Shown: positions 4,751-13,653 of the stretch, one piece after another
Layout of the letters: each line of letters opens with the position of its first letter
Numbering within the stretch: position 1 is the first letter of the stretch
Assembly (NCBI RefSeq): GCF_023073335.1
Contig: NZ_JADPJG010000032.1
Location: 248,001 to 312,000 of the forward strand
Length of the DNA: 64,000 bases
Reading direction: 5' to 3'
Origin: Bradyrhizobium sp. 21
GTDB taxonomy: Bacteria > Pseudomonadota > Alphaproteobacteria > Rhizobiales > Xanthobacteraceae
The notes under the pieces: model-generated
Told to the model about the DNA's origin: nothing
Seen by the model: the letters and a program-made list of their open reading frames with translations, nothing else
Databases searched by the model: none
Program-made: the position numbers and the translations under genes

Positions 4751-5362
4751 ATGTCAAGGGTGAGAACCAGGCCGACCAGAGACGACACGCGCGACAAACT
4801 GTTCGAGGCGGCCGCGCGCGTGTTCGAGGAAGACGGCATCGGCGGCGCCAGCATCGAGACGATCGCGGCCGCAGCGGGCTTCACCCGCGGCGCCTTCTAT
4901 TCCAACTTCAAGAGCAAGGACGAGCTGATCATCGCCATGCTCGAGGATCATGTCGAACAGTCGATCCGGCGCAACATGGACATCCTCGCGCAGCACGACA
5001 ATCTCGACGACTTCATCGCGGCGCTGAAGGCGATGGACCGCACCAGGCAGGACCCGCTCGGCCGCTCGCCCCTCCTCCACATGGAGATGATCCTGTTCGT
5101 CGCGCGCGCCGAAAAGCGCCGCCCCGAACTCGCCAAACGCCTGCGCGCGCGGCGCAAGCTGGTCGCCGACATCGTCGAGGCGACGCTAAAGGACAACGCG
5201 AAGGGCGACAATCTGAACCCGCCCTGGATGGCGTCTGTCGTGCTGGCGCTGGAAGACGGCTTTCGCCTGCACCGGCTGATCGATCCGGAGACCACGCCGG
5301 CCGACAGCTTCTTGCGCGCGATCACGGATTTGCGGCGGAGAACGGGGCTGGCGTCGGATTAG
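4751..5362 (+). CDS. TetR/AcrR family transcriptional regulator
   Basis: A 203-residue protein with the N-terminal TetR helix-turn-helix: TRDKLFEAAARVF, then GASIETIAAAAGF and TRGAFYSNFKSKDEL (about residues 13-60). The rest is the variable ligand-binding and dimerisation domain. It is transcribed away from the P450 gene and starts 22 bp after a perfect palindrome, so autoregulation and repression of the P450 are likely. No strong ribosome binding site precedes the ATG; the short distance to the palindrome suggests a short leader. The ligand is unknown, probably the P450 substrate or a related compound. Confidence 0.93.
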   Translation: MSRVRTRPTRDDTRDKLFEAAARVFEEDGIGGASIETIAAAAGFTRGAFYSNFKSKDELIIAMLEDHVEQSIRRNMDILAQHDNLDDFIAALKAMDRTRQDPLGRSPLLHMEMILFVARAEKRRPELAKRLRARRKLVADIVEATLKDNAKGDNLNPPWMASVVLALEDGFRLHRLIDPETTPADSFLRAITDLRRRTGLASD

Positions 5363-5555
5363 GGTGACGGCTTCGGAAGTTCGTCGCGCTTTCTCGCGCG
5401 ATCGGCCTTGTGAAACGGGTCAACCGCCACTCAGCGTGCGGCTGACACGGGTCACGATCGCATCCCACTGCCCCGAGAGCTCGGGTGCGTAGCGCGAACG
5501 CTGGGCTATCCGCGGCCTGGTGACGTCGTTTACTTGGTGGTACGACGCGGTCGCG

Positions 5556-5572
5556 CGTGTCATATAGACACG
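5556..5572. promoter_or_regulatory. Short palindrome upstream of MAPEG gene
   Basis: CGTGTC-ATATA-GACACG is a perfect inverted repeat with 6-bp arms, 16 bp before the MAPEG start codon and just ahead of its ribosome binding site. It could be an operator or a 5' leader hairpin. No regulator gene for it is evident. Confidence 0.4.
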
Positions 5573-5588
5573 TCAGAGGGGAGCCAAA

Positions 5589-6056
5589 TTGGACAGAATG
5601 AATCTTCACGATCCCCTTTTCGCCACGTATGTCGTTGCTGCCTGCCTGATGATCTTGAAGGCCGTGGCGATGTCATGGCTGACGGTGATCCGCATGGTGC
5701 AGGCCAATGGGGGTTACCGTTCGCCGGAGGACATCAAGAAGACCCCGATGAATCCCGCGCCAGATCCGGCGCAGCTTCTTCCCAACGAACGCGTCGAGCG
5801 AATTCGCCGGATCCAGATGAACGATCTCGAGAGCCTACCCTACTTCCTGGTCGCGGGCCTTCTCTATGTCCTCACACAGCCGTCGCTACGGCTCGCGCAG
5901 TGGCTGCTCTACGGCTACGTCGCCTCACGCCTGCTCCATTTTCTGGCGTATCTCACCGGGCAAATCCACGAAGTTCGCGCGACGCTGTGGACGGCCGGCT
6001 CGCTCATCCTGGTCTTCATGACCGTTCGCACGCTTCTCGTTGCACTCGGCGCTTGA
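5589..6056 (+). CDS. MAPEG family membrane protein
   Basis: A 155-residue integral membrane protein with about four hydrophobic helices. After the first helix, the segment ERVERIRRIQMNDLES is the MAPEG signature (microsomal glutathione S-transferase and prostaglandin E synthase type). Members conjugate or reduce lipophilic electrophiles with glutathione, although many bacterial ones are uncharacterised. The TTG at 5589 is preferred because AGGGGAG lies about six bases upstream; the ATG at 5598 is the alternative. It ends three bases from the convergent SARP-type regulator gene. Confidence 0.85.
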   Translation: MDRMNLHDPLFATYVVAACLMILKAVAMSWLTVIRMVQANGGYRSPEDIKKTPMNPAPDPAQLLPNERVERIRRIQMNDLESLPYFLVAGLLYVLTQPSLRLAQWLLYGYVASRLLHFLAYLTGQIHEVRATLWTAGSLILVFMTVRTLLVALGA

Positions 6057-6059
6057 CGC

Positions 6060-8063
6060 TCAATCGGCCACACCGGCGACCTGCTGGGCTGAAAGGTAGC
6101 GTTCGAGAACGTCGTTTTGCTTGAAAAAGCGCATGGCGCGCAGATCGCGGATCGTTGTTTTTTGTGCCGCATCGCGACGCCGCGTGATCTCGCGGGCTTC
6201 TTCCAGGCGGCCGGCGGCGACCAGATTGGCCGCCAACATACGATGGCCGGTGCCATTGCCCGGATTGTGCCGAACCGACTTGCGTGCCCAGGCAATGCCA
6301 TCCTCATGGCGCCCGAGCGCAAAGCAGGACGCCGTCAATCCTGTCATCCACAAATGCAGCATGCTGTCGTAGGGACTGAGGACGAGAGAACGATGAAGGC
6401 ATGCGACGGCGTTCTCGTATTCGCCTGCCATACTATCGATCATTCCGAGCACACCCCACGCAAAGGCGGAACTGGGATTGAGCCTCACGGCCTCGCTGGC
6501 ATGAATACGCCCCTGATCGTTGTCGCCGGCCGGCCCAAAGAGTGTGAAGCCATATACCGCATGGGCAAAAGCGTCCGTGCCGTCCTGCTCGACGGCGCGG
6601 CGCGCCAGACCGAGCGCCTCGGCCGCGCCGTCCGCCGGTGTGTGCGCGCCAAGCGGCGGAGCCATGACCAGTCCCCAAGCCAGCGCCGCGAGCGTCGGCG
6701 TACGCGCCGGATCAAGGCGGAGAGACTGTCGAAGCAAGTCCATCGCCTTGGCGATGTCCTCACGGGTGCCGCCCCATAGGTGATGAAGGGCACGCAAATA
6801 AAGATCATACGCAGAAAGATTGGTTGGCGGCTTGCGGCGTGCTCGTTGGATCTCGGCGCTACGAACGGCGGGATCGACGACCGCAGCGACACTGCTGCTG
6901 ACGTCATCCTGAAGATCAAAGATGTCGGTCAGTGGGCGGTCATAGCGATCGGACCAGACCTGAGCCTCACTGCCGGTATGGGTCAGCTCGGCCGACACGC
7001 GAATGCGGCTGCCGGCCTTGCGTATATGGCCGCTCAAGACGTACTGGACGCCGAGTTGTTGCGCAATCTGCTGGCTGGTCATTCCCTTGTCCCGGAGGGC
7101 AAAGCTCGACCCATGCGCAATCACCACGAGTTCGCGAAAGCGCGACAAGGCCGTGATGATGTCCGCAGTGACGCCGTCGGCGAAATAGTTCTGTTCGGGG
7201 TCACCGCCCATGTTCCTGAATGGTAGAACCACCAAGGACGGCTTCTCGCCGTGCATGATGAGCGCCAGCGGGGGTGAGACCTCTGGCGCGACCTCAGCCG
7301 CTGCCGGCACGACGTCCTGCGCGTGATTGCTGCGCAGTTCCGCGGCCAGCGATTTGGTTGCCAGATCGGGCTCGGTGCTCAGCTCGCGCTTCAGCAAGGC
7401 AACGATGTCCCGATAATATTTGAGCGCCTCGGCGGTACGTCCGGTTGCGGACAAAGCGCGCATGATCAAGCGATGCGAATCTTCGCGCATGTCATTGAGT
7501 GCATTGGCGCGCTGGCCGACTCGCAGGGCTTGCTCCGCACGTCCCTCAGAGAGCTCGAGCTCGCCGAGCGTCACCAGAGCGCCCAGCGCCAGCTCCGATA
7601 ACCGCTCACGTTCGCCGGTCACCCATTCGCTCCAGCTTTCTTCGCCGACGCTGATGTCATCAGCCATGCGCCCGCGATAGAGGTCCGCCGCCGCACTCAA
7701 GGCATCACGGCTCCCCTCCCGGACAAGCCCCTCAAATTGGCTCACATCGCATGCGATCAGTGTGGCATTCAACGATACGAATTCGCCATCGCTCTGTAGA
7801 GCATCCTGGCCCAGGATTTGACGCAGCTTGAAGAGCGCTTGCCGCAGATTTTGCTTCGCTTGCGCATCGAGGTGAGATCCCCACAGCAAGGTCGACAGCT
7901 TTTCGCGTGACTGCGGGTGAGGCGCCATGCAGGCCAGAAAAGCGAGCAATCCCGCGAGTTTCTTGTTGGGCAAGCTGACGGCGCCATCCCGGCCTGTCAG
8001 TACAAAACGTCCCAGAAGCGACAGCGTAAAATTTGGGCGTGACGTAGACGTCGCTTTGGCCAA
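6060..8063 (-). CDS. SARP-type regulator with TolB-like and TPR domains
   Basis: A 667-residue protein. Residues 10-100 form an OmpR-like winged helix (LSLLGRFVLTG, then LLWGSHLDAQAKQNLRQALF), followed by a bacterial transcriptional activation domain to about 250. Residues about 270-390 resemble the TolB-like module often found beside adenylate cyclase domains (PSLVVLPFRNMGGDPEQNYF, LGVQYVLSGHIRK), and the remainder is TPR-like. No cyclase catalytic domain is present, so it is most likely a DNA-binding regulator with a protein-interaction C-terminus. The regulon is unknown; the nearest divergent genes are the small-protein cluster beginning at 8251. The long C-terminus and DNA-binding N-terminus are both intact. 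Confidence 0.88.
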   Translation of the reverse strand: MAKATSTSRPNFTLSLLGRFVLTGRDGAVSLPNKKLAGLLAFLACMAPHPQSREKLSTLLWGSHLDAQAKQNLRQALFKLRQILGQDALQSDGEFVSLNATLIACDVSQFEGLVREGSRDALSAAADLYRGRMADDISVGEESWSEWVTGERERLSELALGALVTLGELELSEGRAEQALRVGQRANALNDMREDSHRLIMRALSATGRTAEALKYYRDIVALLKRELSTEPDLATKSLAAELRSNHAQDVVPAAAEVAPEVSPPLALIMHGEKPSLVVLPFRNMGGDPEQNYFADGVTADIITALSRFRELVVIAHGSSFALRDKGMTSQQIAQQLGVQYVLSGHIRKAGSRIRVSAELTHTGSEAQVWSDRYDRPLTDIFDLQDDVSSSVAAVVDPAVRSAEIQRARRKPPTNLSAYDLYLRALHHLWGGTREDIAKAMDLLRQSLRLDPARTPTLAALAWGLVMAPPLGAHTPADGAAEALGLARRAVEQDGTDAFAHAVYGFTLFGPAGDNDQGRIHASEAVRLNPSSAFAWGVLGMIDSMAGEYENAVACLHRSLVLSPYDSMLHLWMTGLTASCFALGRHEDGIAWARKSVRHNPGNGTGHRMLAANLVAAGRLEEAREITRRRDAAQKTTIRDLRAMRFFKQNDVLERYLSAQQVAGVAD

Positions 8064-8250
8064 TCCGCCTCCGATTTAATCAGTCGCACTCTGTCGTATA
8101 CATTCTACACGAATTGCCAGCTTTGCGCACATTATTAACGTGCCGATGACGGTGGAGTAACGCCAGCGAAGACGATCGCAGGTTCTGATCGCATTGCGAC
8201 GGGATGCCGATTGGTGAATCGGCGCTCGGCAATTTCATCGGGAAGCAGTC

Positions 8251-8403
8251 ATGCGCGCGCGTCACCTCCTAGCGTTGGTCGCCATCCTTTTCGTAGCCCT
8301 TGCGGGGATCGACGCCGCGCTGACGGTCTTTGCCGCTCCAAGAGCCATGGCCGCATCGGACTCGGCACCTCCGGTCGCACCGCTCCTATTCGGAGGCGAC
8401 TGA
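8251..8403 (+). CDS. Small single-helix membrane or exported protein (50 aa)
   Basis: ATG at 8251 to TGA at 8403 gives 50 residues beginning MRARHLLALVAILFVALAG, with one hydrophobic helix and an AAPRAMA segment that could be a signal-peptidase site. GGGAAG stands upstream. Its stop overlaps the next ATG (TGATG), suggesting translational coupling with the DUF1127 gene. Its ending and overall layout resemble the C-terminal 47 residues of the product at 9249-9608, so the two look like distant paralogues. Function unknown. Confidence 0.6.
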   Translation: MRARHLLALVAILFVALAGIDAALTVFAAPRAMAASDSAPPVAPLLFGGD

Positions 8404-8891
8404 TGGACTCCGACTTCACAATGGCCATCAAGCAGGAGATCGCATTGGCCAACTTCGACGATCGAACTCTCGATTGGCGTGAAGCTACTGACAACACGGC
8501 CCAGAGATGGCCGCGGCATCAGCCTTCCTGTCTCTCGGTGGAGGAATCGACGGTGACGCACGCGTCATTTGCTGAGGCCGCAACCACGTCCCGGGCAAGG
8601 TCCCAAGCGCGCATCCCCGACGCTATTGCCCCTGCAAGGGATTTTCATCCGCGCAGCCTGGCGCCCCTCACGCTGTTCGTCACCTGGTACCAGCGCGCCT
8701 GCTTCAGGGCAGAGCTGCTTGCCGACCTCAGGGACCGGCCCGAATACCTCAACGACATCGGGATTTGCCGGCACGAGGCGACGTCCGAAACCACCCGATT
8801 CTTCTGGGAGCCGATCCTGCTTAGGCCCAGCTAGAGGCGACTGAGTGGACTCCAACATCACATGGCCGTCAAACAGGAGGTCGCATTGACC
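8394..8891 (+). repeat. Duplicated translation-initiation segment (8394-8450 and 8835-8891)
   Basis: Two segments of about 57 bp match at roughly 50 of 58 aligned positions. Each runs from AGGCGACTGA through an ATGGCC to a CAGGAG-xTCGCA-TTG initiation-like site. Copy A overlaps the end of the 50-aa gene and the start of the DUF1127 gene; copy B begins one base after the DUF1127 stop and leads the next small gene. The duplicated part therefore carries the ribosome binding region, not a protein domain. Confidence 0.65.
8403..8834 (+). CDS. DUF1127 domain protein
   Basis: From the ATG at 8403 this encodes 143 residues. The C-terminus, FRAELLADLRDRPEYLNDIG followed by ICRHEA and FFWEP, matches the short arginine-rich DUF1127 (YjiS-like) domain: an LxxL-D-x-LxDIG core and a terminal aromatic residue. 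Small DUF1127 proteins have been tied to RNA binding, phosphate and stress adaptation in alphaproteobacteria. The N-terminal 90 residues are low in recognisable structure. A TTG at 8445, preceded by AGGAG at good spacing, is a plausible alternative start. It overlaps the preceding small gene by one base. Confidence 0.65.
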   Translation: MDSDFTMAIKQEIALANFDDRTLDWREATDNTAQRWPRHQPSCLSVEESTVTHASFAEAATTSRARSQARIPDAIAPARDFHPRSLAPLTLFVTWYQRACFRAELLADLRDRPEYLNDIGICRHEATSETTRFFWEPILLRPS

Positions 8892-9113
8892 GATATCGCG
8901 CAAATACGATCGCAACCGCACGCTTTTCTTTCAACCGAGCAGGAAGGGCGAACTGCCACGACTTCGAGAATTGGGCCGGTCGCATTCTATGGACTGATCC
9001 TGACGCTGTTGATCGGCTTCGCTGCAACGAGCCAAAGGCCTCGCGAATACCAGGCCAATCTCGCTTCGGATGATTTCGTCACCCATTACGTTTCGAACCC
9101 GCCGCTCCCGTAA
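8862..9113 (+). CDS. Small single-helix membrane protein (83 aa)
   Basis: The 83-residue product has a polar N-terminus, one hydrophobic helix (VAFYGLILTLLIGFAA, about residues 40-55) and a polar tail. The start could instead be the TTG at 8886, which has AGGAG upstream; that region is a copy of the initiation segment of the preceding gene. No family is recognised. It lies 27 bp after the DUF1127 gene, on the same strand. Confidence 0.5.
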   Translation: MAVKQEVALTDIAQIRSQPHAFLSTEQEGRTATTSRIGPVAFYGLILTLLIGFAATSQRPREYQANLASDDFVTHYVSNPPLP

Positions 9114-9248
9114 GCGAACACCGCCGCCGTACCTGGCCCTGCCAGCAAACGCGGCGGCAGATTTCAATGCAGGTTTCAATCGTTTCAGGATTGCGGGCAT
9201 GGGCGCGCACCCGGTTGCGCCATGCCGCGCAGCATCAGGAGAATAGCC

Positions 9249-9608
9249 ATGACGATCGACGTTCTCGCGCCGCCTCGGGCCTCCGTGGCATCAGCGATCA
9301 TCGCTGCACTTCACGAATCCCGCCGACTGCAGGCAATCAAGGTCATTCATCGCTACCGGCATCTCGGCTCCGACCGGGCCGAAATCAGCCTTTGCGACAG
9401 GACGCCATCGCCGGACACGAAAGCGCGCGCTCGTCAGATGCCGAACAATGGAAGGGATAAAAAAATGAGACGATTGAGAGAAACACATCTGATGATCCTC
9501 ATTCTTCTGGGATTCGGCGTCGTTCACGTGATTGGCGCCGTGCTGATGGCGCGTGCAGCACCCGAGCAAGGTCATCCTCCCATGGTCGTCGCAGCCTCGG
9601 GCGACTGA
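9249..9608 (+). CDS. Small membrane protein with possible internal start at 9465
   Basis: ATG at 9249 follows AGGAG at seven bases and gives 119 residues. The N-terminal half is soluble and unrecognised. An in-frame ATG at 9465, preceded by GGAAGGGATAAAAA, would give a 47-residue peptide with one hydrophobic helix (MILILLGFGVVHVIGAVLM) that ends in SGD. That peptide resembles the 50-aa protein at 8251 (a helix, then AAP, a PP-V segment, and a terminal GD). The locus may thus produce a long and a short form, or be a fusion of two small genes. Confidence 0.55.
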   Translation: MTIDVLAPPRASVASAIIAALHESRRLQAIKVIHRYRHLGSDRAEISLCDRTPSPDTKARARQMPNNGRDKKMRRLRETHLMILILLGFGVVHVIGAVLMARAAPEQGHPPMVVAASGD

Positions 9609-9661
9609 CGGCGGCCGGCGACGGAAGCTGGTTGACTGATGTGAAAGATCAAGAGGCCGAC

Positions 9662-9814
9662 ATGGCAGCAATCATAAACGCGATTTCCCGGACGGCCCTC
9701 TCGGTCACCCGCGCCGACGCGGCGAAACACGCTCTGCTGCTGGCCGGAGCGTGCGCTTTCGTGTTCGTGCTCTCGCTCACCGACGGCCTGGATTTGAGCC
9801 CCGGATTGTTTTGA
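9662..9814 (+). CDS. Small single-helix membrane protein (50 aa)
   Basis: ATG at 9662 has AAGAGG about six bases upstream. The 50-residue product carries one hydrophobic helix (ALLLAGACAFVFVLSL) near the C-terminus. No family is recognised. It is the last of the run of small same-strand genes and lies about 200 bp before the transporter gene. Confidence 0.5.
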   Translation: MAAIINAISRTALSVTRADAAKHALLLAGACAFVFVLSLTDGLDLSPGLF

Positions 9815-9875
9815 TCGTCGCAGCGGCGAGATCCACGAACGTCGCCCGGCACTGTGCGCGCTGATGCCGGCGAAC

Positions 9876-9917
9876 CCGCCTTCGACGGGTGCCATTCCGC
9901 CTTCGACGGGTGCCATT
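9876..9917 (+). repeat. Two tandem 21-bp repeats
   Basis: The unit CCGCCTTCGACGGGTGCCAT plus T occurs twice without a gap, in the spacer before the BASS transporter gene. If translated it would give a repeated PPSTGAI, but no convincing gene covers it. Each unit contains a CCG/CGG dyad that may form a small hairpin. Confidence 0.7.
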
Positions 9918-10012
9918 GGTGTCGCGCCAATCATGCGCCGCATGTTCCGGCCGTCAGAGCCTGCGATCCGACGATTTCACCGTGCTGACACGCACATAGA
10001 CGAGGGGCCGAT

Positions 10013-10960
10013 ATGTACGTTGGCAGAATATTGTCTACGCTTGGCGGACAAGGACCGACGCTTCTGGTGATCTCACTTTGCGCCGGGCTGTCGATCAGTC
10101 CCCTCGCTCACATCGGCTACGATCTTTTGCCTTTTTCAGCATTCCTCCTGACGCTCGGCTCGTTTCTCACTGCCGGGCTCGCTCCGTCCGAAGTCGGGAT
10201 TCGTCCGCCTCTGATGGCTCTGGTGCTTGTTTGGGTTGGCTTGGCGCTTCCTTTGGCTGCCGCTGCTCTGCTGTCCTTTCTTCCGCTCGATCCTGCGCTG
10301 CGGGCCGGTGTTCTGCTTTCGCTGCTGGCGCCGCCGGTTGGAAGCGCCGCTGCGATTGCGGGGATGCTTGGTTTGCGACCACGCCTTGCGCTACTCGTCT
10401 CCATCGCACTGACGCTCCTCGCGCCGATTTCGATTCCGTGTTTTGCCACAGTGCTCGGACTTGGAGTTGCGTTCGACATGGGCGCCCTGGCTATCCGGCT
10501 GTTCAGCATCATCGGAGCTGCGGGCATGGTTGCCTTTCTGGCAATACGGTTCCACCGACATCTGACCCCCGTTCTGCCGGATCAACGCGCGGCCACCGGG
10601 ATCGCCGTTATCGGACTCATCATCGTGGGACTAGCCACGTCACAAGGCATACGGGCCCAGTGGACCAGCAATGCCCTGCGTTTCGACATGATGCTCGTCG
10701 CGGCAATCGTTGCCAACTTTGGGCTGTGCGCGCTCGCGACTCTCGCATTCGCCAGGCTAGGGCTGCAGACCGCCGGGACAATAGGCCTCGTGACCGGAAA
10801 CCGTAACGTCACTCTCGTGTGGGCAGCCGCGAGCTTCGGTCTACCAACCCTCGCGGAGGGCTATGTCGCGGCGTGCGTCATCCCGGTCCTCGCGCTTCCT
10901 CTCATCGTCAAACTTTGTCTCAAACTACCGTCCTTCGGCCGTTTCGTGCCGCAAAACTGA
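10013..10960 (+). CDS. BASS (bile acid:sodium symporter)-like transporter
   Basis: A 315-residue membrane protein with about nine hydrophobic helices. The motif GNRNVTLVWAA near residues 262-272 corresponds to the conserved sodium-site loop of BASS-family carriers, and LLAPPVGSAAAIAGML is the matching N-terminal repeat element. Relatives import organic anions with sodium or export metalloid ions. The substrate is not evident, and the neighbouring small proteins give no clear hint. The ATG at 10013 has GAGGGG about eight bases upstream. Confidence 0.75.
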   Translation: MYVGRILSTLGGQGPTLLVISLCAGLSISPLAHIGYDLLPFSAFLLTLGSFLTAGLAPSEVGIRPPLMALVLVWVGLALPLAAAALLSFLPLDPALRAGVLLSLLAPPVGSAAAIAGMLGLRPRLALLVSIALTLLAPISIPCFATVLGLGVAFDMGALAIRLFSIIGAAGMVAFLAIRFHRHLTPVLPDQRAATGIAVIGLIIVGLATSQGIRAQWTSNALRFDMMLVAAIVANFGLCALATLAFARLGLQTAGTIGLVTGNRNVTLVWAAASFGLPTLAEGYVAACVIPVLALPLIVKLCLKLPSFGRFVPQN

Positions 10961-11049
10961 CGATTCAGAGCCGGCAACTGGATCAAGAAGCCAAGCGCAG
11001 AGCGGTCATGGCACGCCGTCGCGGCCGATTGTAGTCTGGCATCCACGCT

Positions 11050-13653
11050 CTACGCCGAGCGCTTCACTGCGTCGCGACCTGCCGGCGCGATGTCGAGGCG
11101 AGCCAGCATCGCCCTCGCCTGCTCGGCGCAGTGCTCGATCAGCCAGCGCTCGAAGGCGACAGGCGGGAGCGCGGGCGCATAGAGGAAACCTTGCACGACG
11201 TCGCAGCCGAGTTCGGCCAGCACCTTGCGCTGCGCCTCGGTCTCGACCCCTTCGCCGACAACGGTCATGCCGAGGCCCTGGCCGACGCGCACCACGGCGG
11301 TGGCGATCGCGAGCGCACCGGCGTCCTTCTCGATGTCGCGCATGAAGCTGCGGTCGATCTTCAATTCGCGGATCGGCAGATGGGCGAGCCGGCTGAGGCT
11401 GGAATAGCCGGTGCCGAAATCGTCCACGGAAAGCCCGACGCCGAGCTCGCGGATTGCGTTCATCGTCTCGAGCGCGGCGACGCTGTCCTGCATGAACGCG
11501 CCCTCGGTGATCTCGAGCATCAGCGCATCCGCCGGCAATTCGTATTCAGCAAGGATGTCCTTGAGCCGCGCGGCCAGCGTGACATTGCGGAAATTGATCG
11601 GGGACAAATTCACCGACACGCTGGGGATGTCGAGCCCGGCACGGCGCCAGTTCGCCATCTGCCGGCAAGCCTCGCGCACCGACCACAGGCCGATCTGCTC
11701 GATCAGGCCGCATTCCTCGGCAAGCGGGATGAATTTTGCCGGCGAGACGTCGCCAAGCACGGCATCGTGCCAGCGCGCCAGCGCCTCGACGCCGTGAATC
11801 GCGCCGTCGCAGCTGCGGATTTGCGGCTGGTAGCTCAGCGTCAGCGCGCCCTCGGCGACGGCGCGGCGCAGCGCCGCGATCAATGCCAGCCTCTGCTCGG
11901 TGAGCCCGTTCATCTCCGCGCTGAACAGGCGGTAGGTCGAACGTCCGGCCTGCTTGGCCATGTACATGGCGGCATCGGCCTGCTGCATCAGCGTGTCGAT
12001 GTCGGTGGCGTGATCGGGGTAAAGGCTGATGCCGATGCTGGCCGACATCGGCATCAGCCTTGATCCGAGGCGCAACGGCGCCGACAGCGCCTCGGTGATT
12101 CCGGCCGCGACACGCTCGGCGCCCTCGGCGGCGCGTTGCGGCAGCAGGATGACGAATTCGTCGCCGCCGAGCCGCCCCAGCATGTCCTCGGGACCGATGT
12201 GCTCGCGCAGGCGCTGCGCGAGCTGGATCAGCAGCTCATCGCCGGCGGCGTGACCGAGCGTGTCGTTGACGTCCTTGAAATGATCGACGTCGAGGAAGGC
12301 CAGCGCGACGTGGCTGCCGGTCGGACAGGCATCGATGGCGGTGGTGATCAGGTGCCGCAATTGCGCGCGGTTCGGCAGGCCGGTGAGGATGTCGTGATAG
12401 GCGAGCCGCGCGATCTCGGCGCGCGCCTCCTTGCGCTCGATCGCGAAGGCGCCGAGGTTGACGCAGGCATCGACGATGCGCCGGTGCCAATTGCTCGGTG
12501 CGCGCGGCTCCCGGTAGTAGAAGGCGAAGGTGGCGATGACCCGGCCGTCCTTGGACTTGACCGGGGTGGACCAGCATGCGCGCAGGCCGATCGCGAGCGG
12601 CATCGCCTTGTAGGGCTGCCAGCGCGGATCGGTGTCGAGATCTTCAGCCAGAACCGGCTCGCCGTAGAAGGCCGCGGTTCCGCAGGAGCCGACTTTGGGA
12701 CCGATGGCGATGCCGTCCAGCGCGCGGGAATAGTCTTCGGGCAGGCTTGGGCCGCCGAGCGGATGGATCAGGCCCTCGGCGTCGACGTGAAGCAGTGAAC
12801 AGACGACGTCGGGCGCGATCTGCTCGACCCGGCGGCAGAGCCGATCTGCGATCTCGCCAATCGGAATCTCGTCGGCGAGCGCACCCATGATGAGCTGCTG
12901 GAGCGAGCGCAGCTGCTTGGTCTCGGTGATGTCCTCGAGCAGCGCGAAGATGTGCTTGACCCGGCCCTTTCTGTCGCGGAACGCGTCGATGCGGGCGCAG
13001 ACCCAGATCTCCTCGCCGTCCTTGTCGTAGACCAGCGTCTCGATTTCGCCGCGCTGGCCACCAGTCACCAGGCGCTTGACGAGCTTGGCGATACCCTTGC
13101 GATCCGTATGGCACCCGGCGATGAGCTCGCCGGCGTGACGCCCCTCGGCCTCCTCGCTGGTATGTCCGAACAGCGCCGTGAACGCCGAATTGACGTAGAC
13201 AATGTTCTGTTCAATGTCGGTGATGATCACGGCACGGTTGGTCTGATCGGAAACGGCGTGGAGCAGCCCAATCCTGGCGCGGCGTTCCGCATCGGTGGTG
13301 ACGTCGCGCGCGAACACGACGTGATGGGTCACGCCGCCACCCGCAACGGACGAAAGCGATATGGCTGTCCGGATTCGGCTGCCGTCGCGCCGCACAAGGC
13401 TGATCTCCTCGCGGAAATCGCTGACAGGATCGGCCTGGAGACATTTGAGGGTGAGAATTTCGGCATCGCGGCCGAGCACCTCGGCGCGCGCGAGTTTCCA
13501 GATCCGCTCCGCACCGGCGTTGAAATGCGTGATGCGATGCGCGCTATCGACAATGACGATGCCATCGTCGGCGCATTCGAACGCAGCCAACAGCACTTCC
13601 GGAATTTCCGTCACAGCACAATCGGAGGCAGACATCGTTGGACCCGGAGGCAT
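11050..13653 (-). CDS. PAS-PAS-GAF-GGDEF-EAL c-di-GMP protein
   Basis: An 867-residue cytoplasmic protein: PAS (about 18-125), PAS (about 135-245), GAF (about 250-400), GGDEF (about 415-575) and EAL (about 590-845). The cyclase motif is intact (LGGDEF), but the inhibitory RxxD site is replaced by GPED, so product feedback through that site is probably lost. The phosphodiesterase motifs look complete (VEAL, NLSPINF, EITEG, DDFGTGYSS, KIDRSF, GEGVE). No membrane segment is present. It should make or degrade cyclic di-GMP in response to an unknown cytoplasmic signal. The start may instead be the ATG at 13635; neither has a strong binding site. Confidence 0.92.
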   Translation of the reverse strand: MPPGPTMSASDCAVTEIPEVLLAAFECADDGIVIVDSAHRITHFNAGAERIWKLARAEVLGRDAEILTLKCLQADPVSDFREEISLVRRDGSRIRTAISLSSVAGGGVTHHVVFARDVTTDAERRARIGLLHAVSDQTNRAVIITDIEQNIVYVNSAFTALFGHTSEEAEGRHAGELIAGCHTDRKGIAKLVKRLVTGGQRGEIETLVYDKDGEEIWVCARIDAFRDRKGRVKHIFALLEDITETKQLRSLQQLIMGALADEIPIGEIADRLCRRVEQIAPDVVCSLLHVDAEGLIHPLGGPSLPEDYSRALDGIAIGPKVGSCGTAAFYGEPVLAEDLDTDPRWQPYKAMPLAIGLRACWSTPVKSKDGRVIATFAFYYREPRAPSNWHRRIVDACVNLGAFAIERKEARAEIARLAYHDILTGLPNRAQLRHLITTAIDACPTGSHVALAFLDVDHFKDVNDTLGHAAGDELLIQLAQRLREHIGPEDMLGRLGGDEFVILLPQRAAEGAERVAAGITEALSAPLRLGSRLMPMSASIGISLYPDHATDIDTLMQQADAAMYMAKQAGRSTYRLFSAEMNGLTEQRLALIAALRRAVAEGALTLSYQPQIRSCDGAIHGVEALARWHDAVLGDVSPAKFIPLAEECGLIEQIGLWSVREACRQMANWRRAGLDIPSVSVNLSPINFRNVTLAARLKDILAEYELPADALMLEITEGAFMQDSVAALETMNAIRELGVGLSVDDFGTGYSSLSRLAHLPIRELKIDRSFMRDIEKDAGALAIATAVVRVGQGLGMTVVGEGVETEAQRKVLAELGCDVVQGFLYAPALPPVAFERWLIEHCAEQARAMLARLDIAPAGRDAVKRSA

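Follow-up and report, generated by a model that had tools for sequence, protein, structure and literature searches.

SARP regulators are known above all for controlling antibiotic gene clusters in Streptomyces. For PimR of Streptomyces natalensis, the archetype of the SARP-LAL group, two reports give three heptameric direct repeats with 4-nt spacers, located between its own gene and its target (PMC5930380, PMC3367932), and a further report places SARP repeats generally 11 or 22 bp apart and gives 11-bp direct repeats for the SARP-NOD-TPR regulator AfsR of Streptomyces coelicolor (PMC10936776). Here we examine a comparable arrangement in Bradyrhizobium sp. 21, within a window of 64,000 nucleotides (contig NZ_JADPJG010000032.1, positions 248,001 to 312,000), where a SARP-type regulator gene is divergent from five small genes, named A to E, with a candidate operator between them (Table 1). 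The evidence makes it fairly probable that A-E constitute a mobile SARP regulon of membrane microproteins carried in an accessory cassette, which is present, missing or differently placed among root-associated relatives. In the literature searched, from which most subscription journals are absent, no title or opening of an abstract described such a system. Beyond the earlier sequence-only reading of this locus, the candidate operator, the mobile accessory block and a segment common to B and C are new.

The large regulator that the sequence-only reading had placed divergently to the small genes is borne out by an open reading frame with a BTAD region scoring far above the Pfam cut-off (E 1.3e-31, 110 bits, cut-off 22.1) and a TPR region; the match to Trans_reg_C at residues 35-88 falls under its cut-off (E 0.0091, 16.5 bits against 26.2). 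Judged by its domains and by the adjacent repeats, we class the regulator as a SARP family member whose candidate operator keeps the classical geometry but uses another heptamer. It resembles PimR in its SARP N-terminus and in the three intergenic heptamers with 4-nt spacers, and its paralogues at loci L073 and L045, the two that were scanned, also combine BTAD with guanylate-cyclase and AAA domains, the complete one of the pair having TPR as well. Unlike PimR, whose heptamer is CGGCAAG and whose target is an antibiotic regulator, the window regulator stands in an alphaproteobacterial host beside heptamers near TNACGCC, its putative targets are membrane microproteins, and it has a TPR region with no cyclase or AAA match in the Pfam scan. 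With AfsR it shares the combination of SARP and TPR parts and the 11-bp direct repeats, whereas it lies far under the cut-off of the NCBIfam AfsR model (5.9e-10, 37.8 bits against 1430 bits), a NOD-type ATPase was not recognised in the Pfam scan, and the targets differ.

Table 1. Features of the accessory block and its surroundings, in window coordinates.
Feature	Position	Strand	Description
Accessory block MAPEG-regulator-A-B-C-D-E-BASS	5363..11049		Missing from the same site in other genomes
MAPEG family membrane protein	5589..6056	+	Pfam E 1.4e-25, 90 bits, cut-off 23.4; 14/14 cassette loci
SARP-type regulator	6060..8063	-	667 aa; N-terminal winged-helix-like part and BTAD, C-terminal TPR region (Pfam)
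Conserved TATACATNCTACA-like element	8097..8109		Regulator-A intergenic alignment, 14 loci
Candidate operator	8136..8164	+	TAACGTG-ccga-TGACGGT-ggag-TAACGCC; three heptamers, 4-nt spacers, 11-bp period
Mini gene A	8251..8403	+	50 aa, one hydrophobic helix, conserved tail PPVxPLLFGGD
Mini gene B	8403..8834	+	143 aa (129 aa from TTG 8445), DUF1127-like C-terminus, hydrophobic helix absent
Mini gene C	8886..9113	+	75 aa from conserved TTG (83 aa from ATG 8862, the start used when C was named as 8862-9113), one hydrophobic helix
Mini gene D	9249..9608	+	119 aa, ALHxSRR N-terminal segment and C-terminal hydrophobic helix
Mini gene E	9662..9814	+	50 aa (60 aa from 9632), one hydrophobic helix, tail LDLSPGLF
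Distant BASS-fold permease	10013..10960	+	315 aa; in block in 9/14 loci

All five small open reading frames are present on the same strand, as the sequence-only reading had it, and its claim of a single helix in four of them holds: A, C, D and E each contain one hydrophobic 19-residue stretch (best mean Kyte-Doolittle values of 2.63, 2.06, 2.71 and 2.05, respectively), and the top stretch of B reaches just 0.70, so no hydrophobic helix is present there. More positive charge precedes the helix than follows it in A, D and E, a distribution which suggests an N-in/C-out topology for these three, C being undecided. Selection on the frames was assessed by the pooled ratio of nonsynonymous to synonymous differences (pN/pS) on cassette-locus orthologues from Bradyrhizobium and Tardiphaga with 200 column permutations, leaving out L044 for A and E, L042 and L044 for C (broken there), L038-L041 for D (tail only), and L037 together with distant paralogues for B. 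The values were 0.52 for A (13 sequences), 0.53 for C (8), 0.51 for D (6) and 0.44 for E (13); for each of these genes 0 of 200 permutations reached a value as low, and the shifted frames gave 0.87-1.66. Protein identity between the window and Tardiphaga is 58-66% for the same four genes. By these measures selection clearly maintains A, C, D and E as proteins, and the frame conservation that the sequence-only reading had proposed as its check was found for them, while B gave a weak signal. A codon model trained on the window missed A-E and the BASS gene and scored the regulator low; such scores fit accessory DNA and were not used against coding.

The description of the genes as uncharacterised stands for A, C, D and E, which have no Pfam or NCBIfam match above cut-off: A, C and E gave no match in these libraries, D gave chance-level matches only, and among 14 members of the E family a single one matched, with an expectation value of 0.19. 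Two further proposals of the earlier reading fared less well. B had been taken for a DUF1127 gene, and its score stays under the Pfam cut-off (E 0.0016, 18.6 bits < 23.3), with 4 of 11 members of the B family matching DUF1127 (PF06568) at E<=0.1 (best 0.0013); its C-terminus RAELLADLRDRPEYLNDIGICRHEA resembles what we take to be the DUF1127 pattern. B is thus like the small DUF1127 proteins of Agrobacterium and Sinorhizobium and like YjiS in that its C-terminus matches the Pfam model weakly, and differs from them in being longer, below the cut-off and placed in a SARP unit. A and the C-terminal half of D had been seen as distant copies, whereas profile comparison gave a non-significant result (P 0.038), and the view of A as a duplicate of the D tail was rejected (hhalign probability 1.4%). 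No relationship was found in the profile comparisons A/E, E/D, C/D and C/E. The only pair with a segment in common is B and C, over the first ~20 residues (profile comparison, P 4.7e-5), a piece which at the DNA level looks like a translation start region.

The start sites bear on the same segment. All 10 copies of C carry the same AGGAGG-N5-TTG, and the ATG at 8862 occurs in 1 of 10, the window copy only; because of this pattern, C probably starts at TTG 8886. B may start at TTG 8445. The start of E is set at 9662 by homology, the longer frame from TTG 9632 being unsupported by homologues.

Turning to regulation, the intergenic region offers heptameric direct repeats at an 11-bp period near the gene that they would regulate. 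The exact pattern TRACG N6 TRACG N6 TRACG occurs once in the 7.0-Mb genome, and the three one-mismatch sites of that genome, two of them overlapping, have no A-E or regulator relatives nearby (L157, L158). Across the 265 Bradyrhizobium genomes searched, the genus of the window, 52 exact sites were counted in 45 genomes, the reversed pattern giving 37. Of the 52, 17 adjoin a mini gene or a regulator of the clade; for the other 35, a number close to that given by the reversed-pattern control, no adjoining A-E gene was found, 11 of them being judged on loci of only 1.9-3.0 kb, and in L176 a weak match to D was seen at a distance of 4 kb from the site. A second conserved intergenic feature, the TATACATNCTACA-like element (Table 1), may be a promoter element, either for the regulator or for A.

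Regulator, site and mini genes also tend to occur together. Relatives of the regulator were collected from the same genomes with its first 250 residues as query (E<=1e-60), ten candidate places being scored per genome, and genome counts are therefore lower bounds. At least 36 regulator places were found in at least 33 genomes, 26 of them at 67-100% identity and 10 at 54-59%, and the repeat lies 55-91 nt upstream of the homology-defined start in 35 of the 36 (<=2 mismatches in 15 positions). Next to the 26 close regulators, where 3.7-6.0 kb of the divergent side were examined, an A-E relative was detected within 6 kb in 25 cases at E<=1e-3 and in 23 at 1e-5. Ten of these 26 loci had supplied sequences to the profiles; of the remaining 16, 13 match at 1e-5. 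None of 108 control segments, each no longer than 6 kb and together amounting to 550 kb, was matched by these profiles. The sole regulator at >=67% identity that has no site, L215, is also the sole one without a mini gene.

The position of B offers a further view of this linkage. Among the 14 cassette loci described below, B belongs to the A operon at five and lies apart from it at another five (L110, L114, L117, L118, L119), and at all of the latter an exact site precedes it. Near-exact sites precede B in L047 and L073, and an extra exact site is found before E in L171. Several clade regulators have only about the N-terminal 300 residues in common with the window regulator. Because the paralogous regulators differ in their other domains, the DNA-binding part, the site and the mini genes appear to stay associated while the rest of the regulator is exchanged. 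The suggestion that the regulator could control the cluster has therefore become probable, based on the operator evidence.

Orthologous loci were obtained by a DNA search of the 265 genomes, with two candidate places scored per genome (genome counts are again lower bounds), and by protein searches; the cassette itself was delimited by comparing its flanks across the 265 genomes and inspecting examples. A-E relatives were also found in three genomes of a second genus, Tardiphaga (L070-L072). In four empty sites (L103, L104, L105, L106) the flanks lie 10-65 bp apart and 5.7 kb are absent; on the left, sequence matching the window runs up to 5353-5358, where a TetR gene has its 3' end, and on the right it resumes at 11050 (at 11082 in L105), with the 3' end of a GGDEF/EAL gene. 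The block occupies the window's site in L107 and L108 and lies elsewhere in L109-L116, where the insertions have common limits at ~5530-5590 and 10957-10976, and one genome has both the empty site (L105) and the block elsewhere (L109). As would be expected of a mobile element, the block is lacking from a matching empty site yet occurs at other places. Gaps between its named genes are at most 226 bp, which leaves no room for a recombinase or transposase of its own. The G+C content in 1-kb steps is 59-63% in the block; elsewhere in the first 30 kb it is mostly 63-70%, with other dips to 61%.

Across the cassette sample of 14 loci (the window and L107-L119), MAPEG, the regulator, A and E are constant, the regulator being broken in L116. 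B is matched in 10 of the 14 and unmatched in L111-L113 and L116; C is nearly complete in 8, a remnant in L114 (the place of L044) and L116 (the place of L042), and without a match in L107, L108, L109 and L115; and the BASS gene is near full length in 9, a fragment in L114 and L118 and unmatched in L107, L115 and L119. The order in L117 is B-BASS-MAPEG-regulator-A-C-D-E, which, B aside, is a circular permutation of the window order; L118, L119 and L114 are arranged as L117, with BASS, and in L114 also C, reduced or missing, and the permuted order was found in Tardiphaga. Moreover, a piece of the EAL gene is repeated across the block at L107:6833-6879 (47 bp) and L108:8965-9116 (152 bp), both copies ending at window 11321, and is possibly a footprint of block insertion. 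Permutation and repeated pieces are compatible with a circular form having been integrated through recombination; alternatively, duplications and losses may have rearranged the block.

We propose that the SARP regulator would bind the three heptamers, probably as cooperating monomers on one helix face, and that this binding would switch on a rightward unit A-B-C-D-E, perhaps together with the BASS permease, in response to a signal which we guess to be sensed by the TPR part. Four single-span proteins and one soluble DUF1127-like protein would then be placed into or at the inner membrane. Their role would most likely be that of small partners or modulators of membrane proteins, a guess drawn from their size, their helix content and the constant company of MAPEG. 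In this respect they recall respiratory partners of the TorE/NapE type, small membrane proteins that serve larger systems, compared here by their published description only (PMC6134056); they differ in that no respiratory enzyme is encoded in the block. MAPEG, A and E would be the constant companions and the permease an optional one, and the cassette would move as a block between Bradyrhizobium and Tardiphaga, possibly via a circular form. A more specific version, in which A and E with their partners act as subunits or switchable modulators within a single membrane assembly that includes MAPEG and, where kept, BASS, and the regulon spreads through the circular form, strikes us as quite unlikely.

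One competing explanation is autoregulation only: the SARP protein would control itself via the triple repeat, and the mini genes would be no more than common companions within an accessory-DNA hot spot. In its favour, the block lies in accessory DNA of lower G+C content and the site is present before nearly all of the regulators. The same pattern, with several other results, weighs against a regulon: the site precedes all ten regulators at 54-59% identity, next to which A-E relatives were found in 0 of 10 over the stretch examined (only 608 bases in L228), and hence may serve autoregulation first; no site directly precedes the B relatives in L035, L036, L046, L048, L087, L209-L212 and L216; the triple repeat was found within 500 bases upstream in 0 of 16 stand-alone E relatives examined; and in L231 and L236 unassociated exact sites lie just beyond the 3' end of a distant SARP relative. 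B is weakly supported as a gene under purifying selection, its C-terminal part (6 sequences) giving a pN/pS of 0.64, a value as low in 13 of 200 permutations and 0.65 in one shifted frame, and the D tail, taken within the genus only, is ambiguous (median pN/pS 0.86, 14 of 21 pairs <1). The losses of BASS speak against it as a necessary partner. In classical SARP systems the 3' repeat lies 8 bp from the -10 element of the target. No consensus sigma-70 promoter was found in 8064-8250, nor a convincing -10 at that classical place; the PimR operator is reported as an exception, without overlap of the -35 (PMC5930380, PMC3367932). Autoregulation alone is nevertheless unlikely in our view, given that a displaced B brings its own exact site at each of the five loci, that E has a second exact site in L171, and that the one close regulator lacking the site is also the one lacking a mini gene.

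Another possibility is that the microproteins are secreted or membrane-active peptides of a bacteriocin-like or toxin-like kind, with MAPEG and the permease for self-protection or export. Such a role would suit a patchily distributed set of small hydrophobic proteins placed under a type of regulator familiar from antibiotic clusters, yet we give it little credence: the short gaps of the block leave no room for a protease or processing enzyme, the A-E sequences differ from one another, conservation of A extends over most of the protein, stand-alone relatives of E are spread over the genus, and no Pfam or NCBIfam family was matched, no peptide-specific library having been searched. It is more improbable still that the system centres functionally on B, as a DUF1127-type protein with a sensor kinase for its target, the other frames being accessories. 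Small DUF1127 proteins are reported to act on PhoR in Agrobacterium, by protein contacts (PMC12501420), and at cassette loci a B located apart from the A operon comes with a candidate operator of its own; yet B stays under the DUF1127 cut-off and is unmatched at four cassette loci that keep A and E. That the small frames are spurious in G+C-rich intergenic DNA, as their poor scores in the window-trained codon model and the lack of a database family might suggest, is scarcely credible in view of purifying selection across two genera and of the protein identity retained by A, C, D and E in Tardiphaga. For B, ~60% protein identity is retained between its C-terminal half and the paralogues.

In this alphaproteobacterial SARP clade the DNA-binding part, the three-repeat site and the microproteins go together as the C-terminal part of the regulator and the place of the block change. 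The clade offers several uncatalogued microprotein families with evidence of selection, a readable candidate operator that predicts where microprotein relatives are switched on, and a compact system for testing the role of single-span microproteins by gene removal. Were the novel assembly real, it would represent a new kind of transferable "microprotein regulon", self-contained and with an exchangeable sensor part.

The permease had been called a BASS transporter, and this label proved right as a predicted fold, while the window protein has no match to Pfam SBF at E<=10. Relatives from a profile search across the order (269 genomes) include two, among eight scanned, that pass the SBF cut-off of 24.3 bits (L241 at 29.3 and L250 at 28.9); L242 was left out of the alignment, its translation containing unknown residues. 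An AlphaFold2 model from 17 sequences reached a predicted local distance difference test score (pLDDT) of 78.1 and a predicted template-modelling score (pTM) of 0.80; a first model from 8 near-identical sequences (pLDDT 35.6) was discarded. With Foldseek, the first 14 matches are bacterial bile-acid symporters, the best at E 5e-6 with a template-modelling score (TM) of 0.73 (ASBT). The predicted fold thus resembles ASBT-NM and ASBT-Yf over nearly its full length (TM ~0.6-0.7), with an identity of 14-19%. The permease profile matched only an antibody chain among the sequences of solved structures (E 0.55). Because it is missing or broken in 5 of the 14 loci, BASS is the weaker candidate partner. 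In the plasmid collection no permease match was found, and three distant SARP relatives were present at 36-39%; the host range seen here is narrow.

The E family extends well beyond the cassette, with relatives in 134 of the 265 genus genomes by protein search; a profile search across the taxonomic family found it in 81 of 391 genomes. A second E-family microprotein in the window's own genome (G000:C25:63732-63875, equal to L050:2733-2876) lies beside a gene encoding Ada metal-binding and AraC domains. The ALHxSRR segment of D also occurs in a family separate from D, with a hydrophobic helix of its own, at L034:5052-5387, L037:2380-2673 and L049:3820-4059, near BASS or mini genes; the copy in L034 stands after the BASS gene, and another is that in L037. 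Short single-helix proteins of the form ..FAQ(Q)PPAKVxIRPT.. lie beside B at L035:3471-3632 and, in L217, ~0.7 kb past the site beside a clade regulator, and are perhaps a sixth mini family.

Around the regulators at 54-59% identity (L219-L228), the site takes the variant form TCACGCY..TCACGCY..TGACG, and small signal-peptide-like proteins that are not A-E lie near three of the four inspected. In L116 the first 130 residues of the regulator are unmatched and the rest lies in two frames, with A, E, BASS and MAPEG retained. A TPR gene related to the C-terminal part of the regulator is found at L107:3353-4405, within ~4 kb of additional sequence that separates the left flank from the cassette. 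An Rfam scan of 5300-11100 gave no family. Finally, between E and the BASS gene, window positions 9876-9917 form a perfect tandem repeat of two 21-nt copies.

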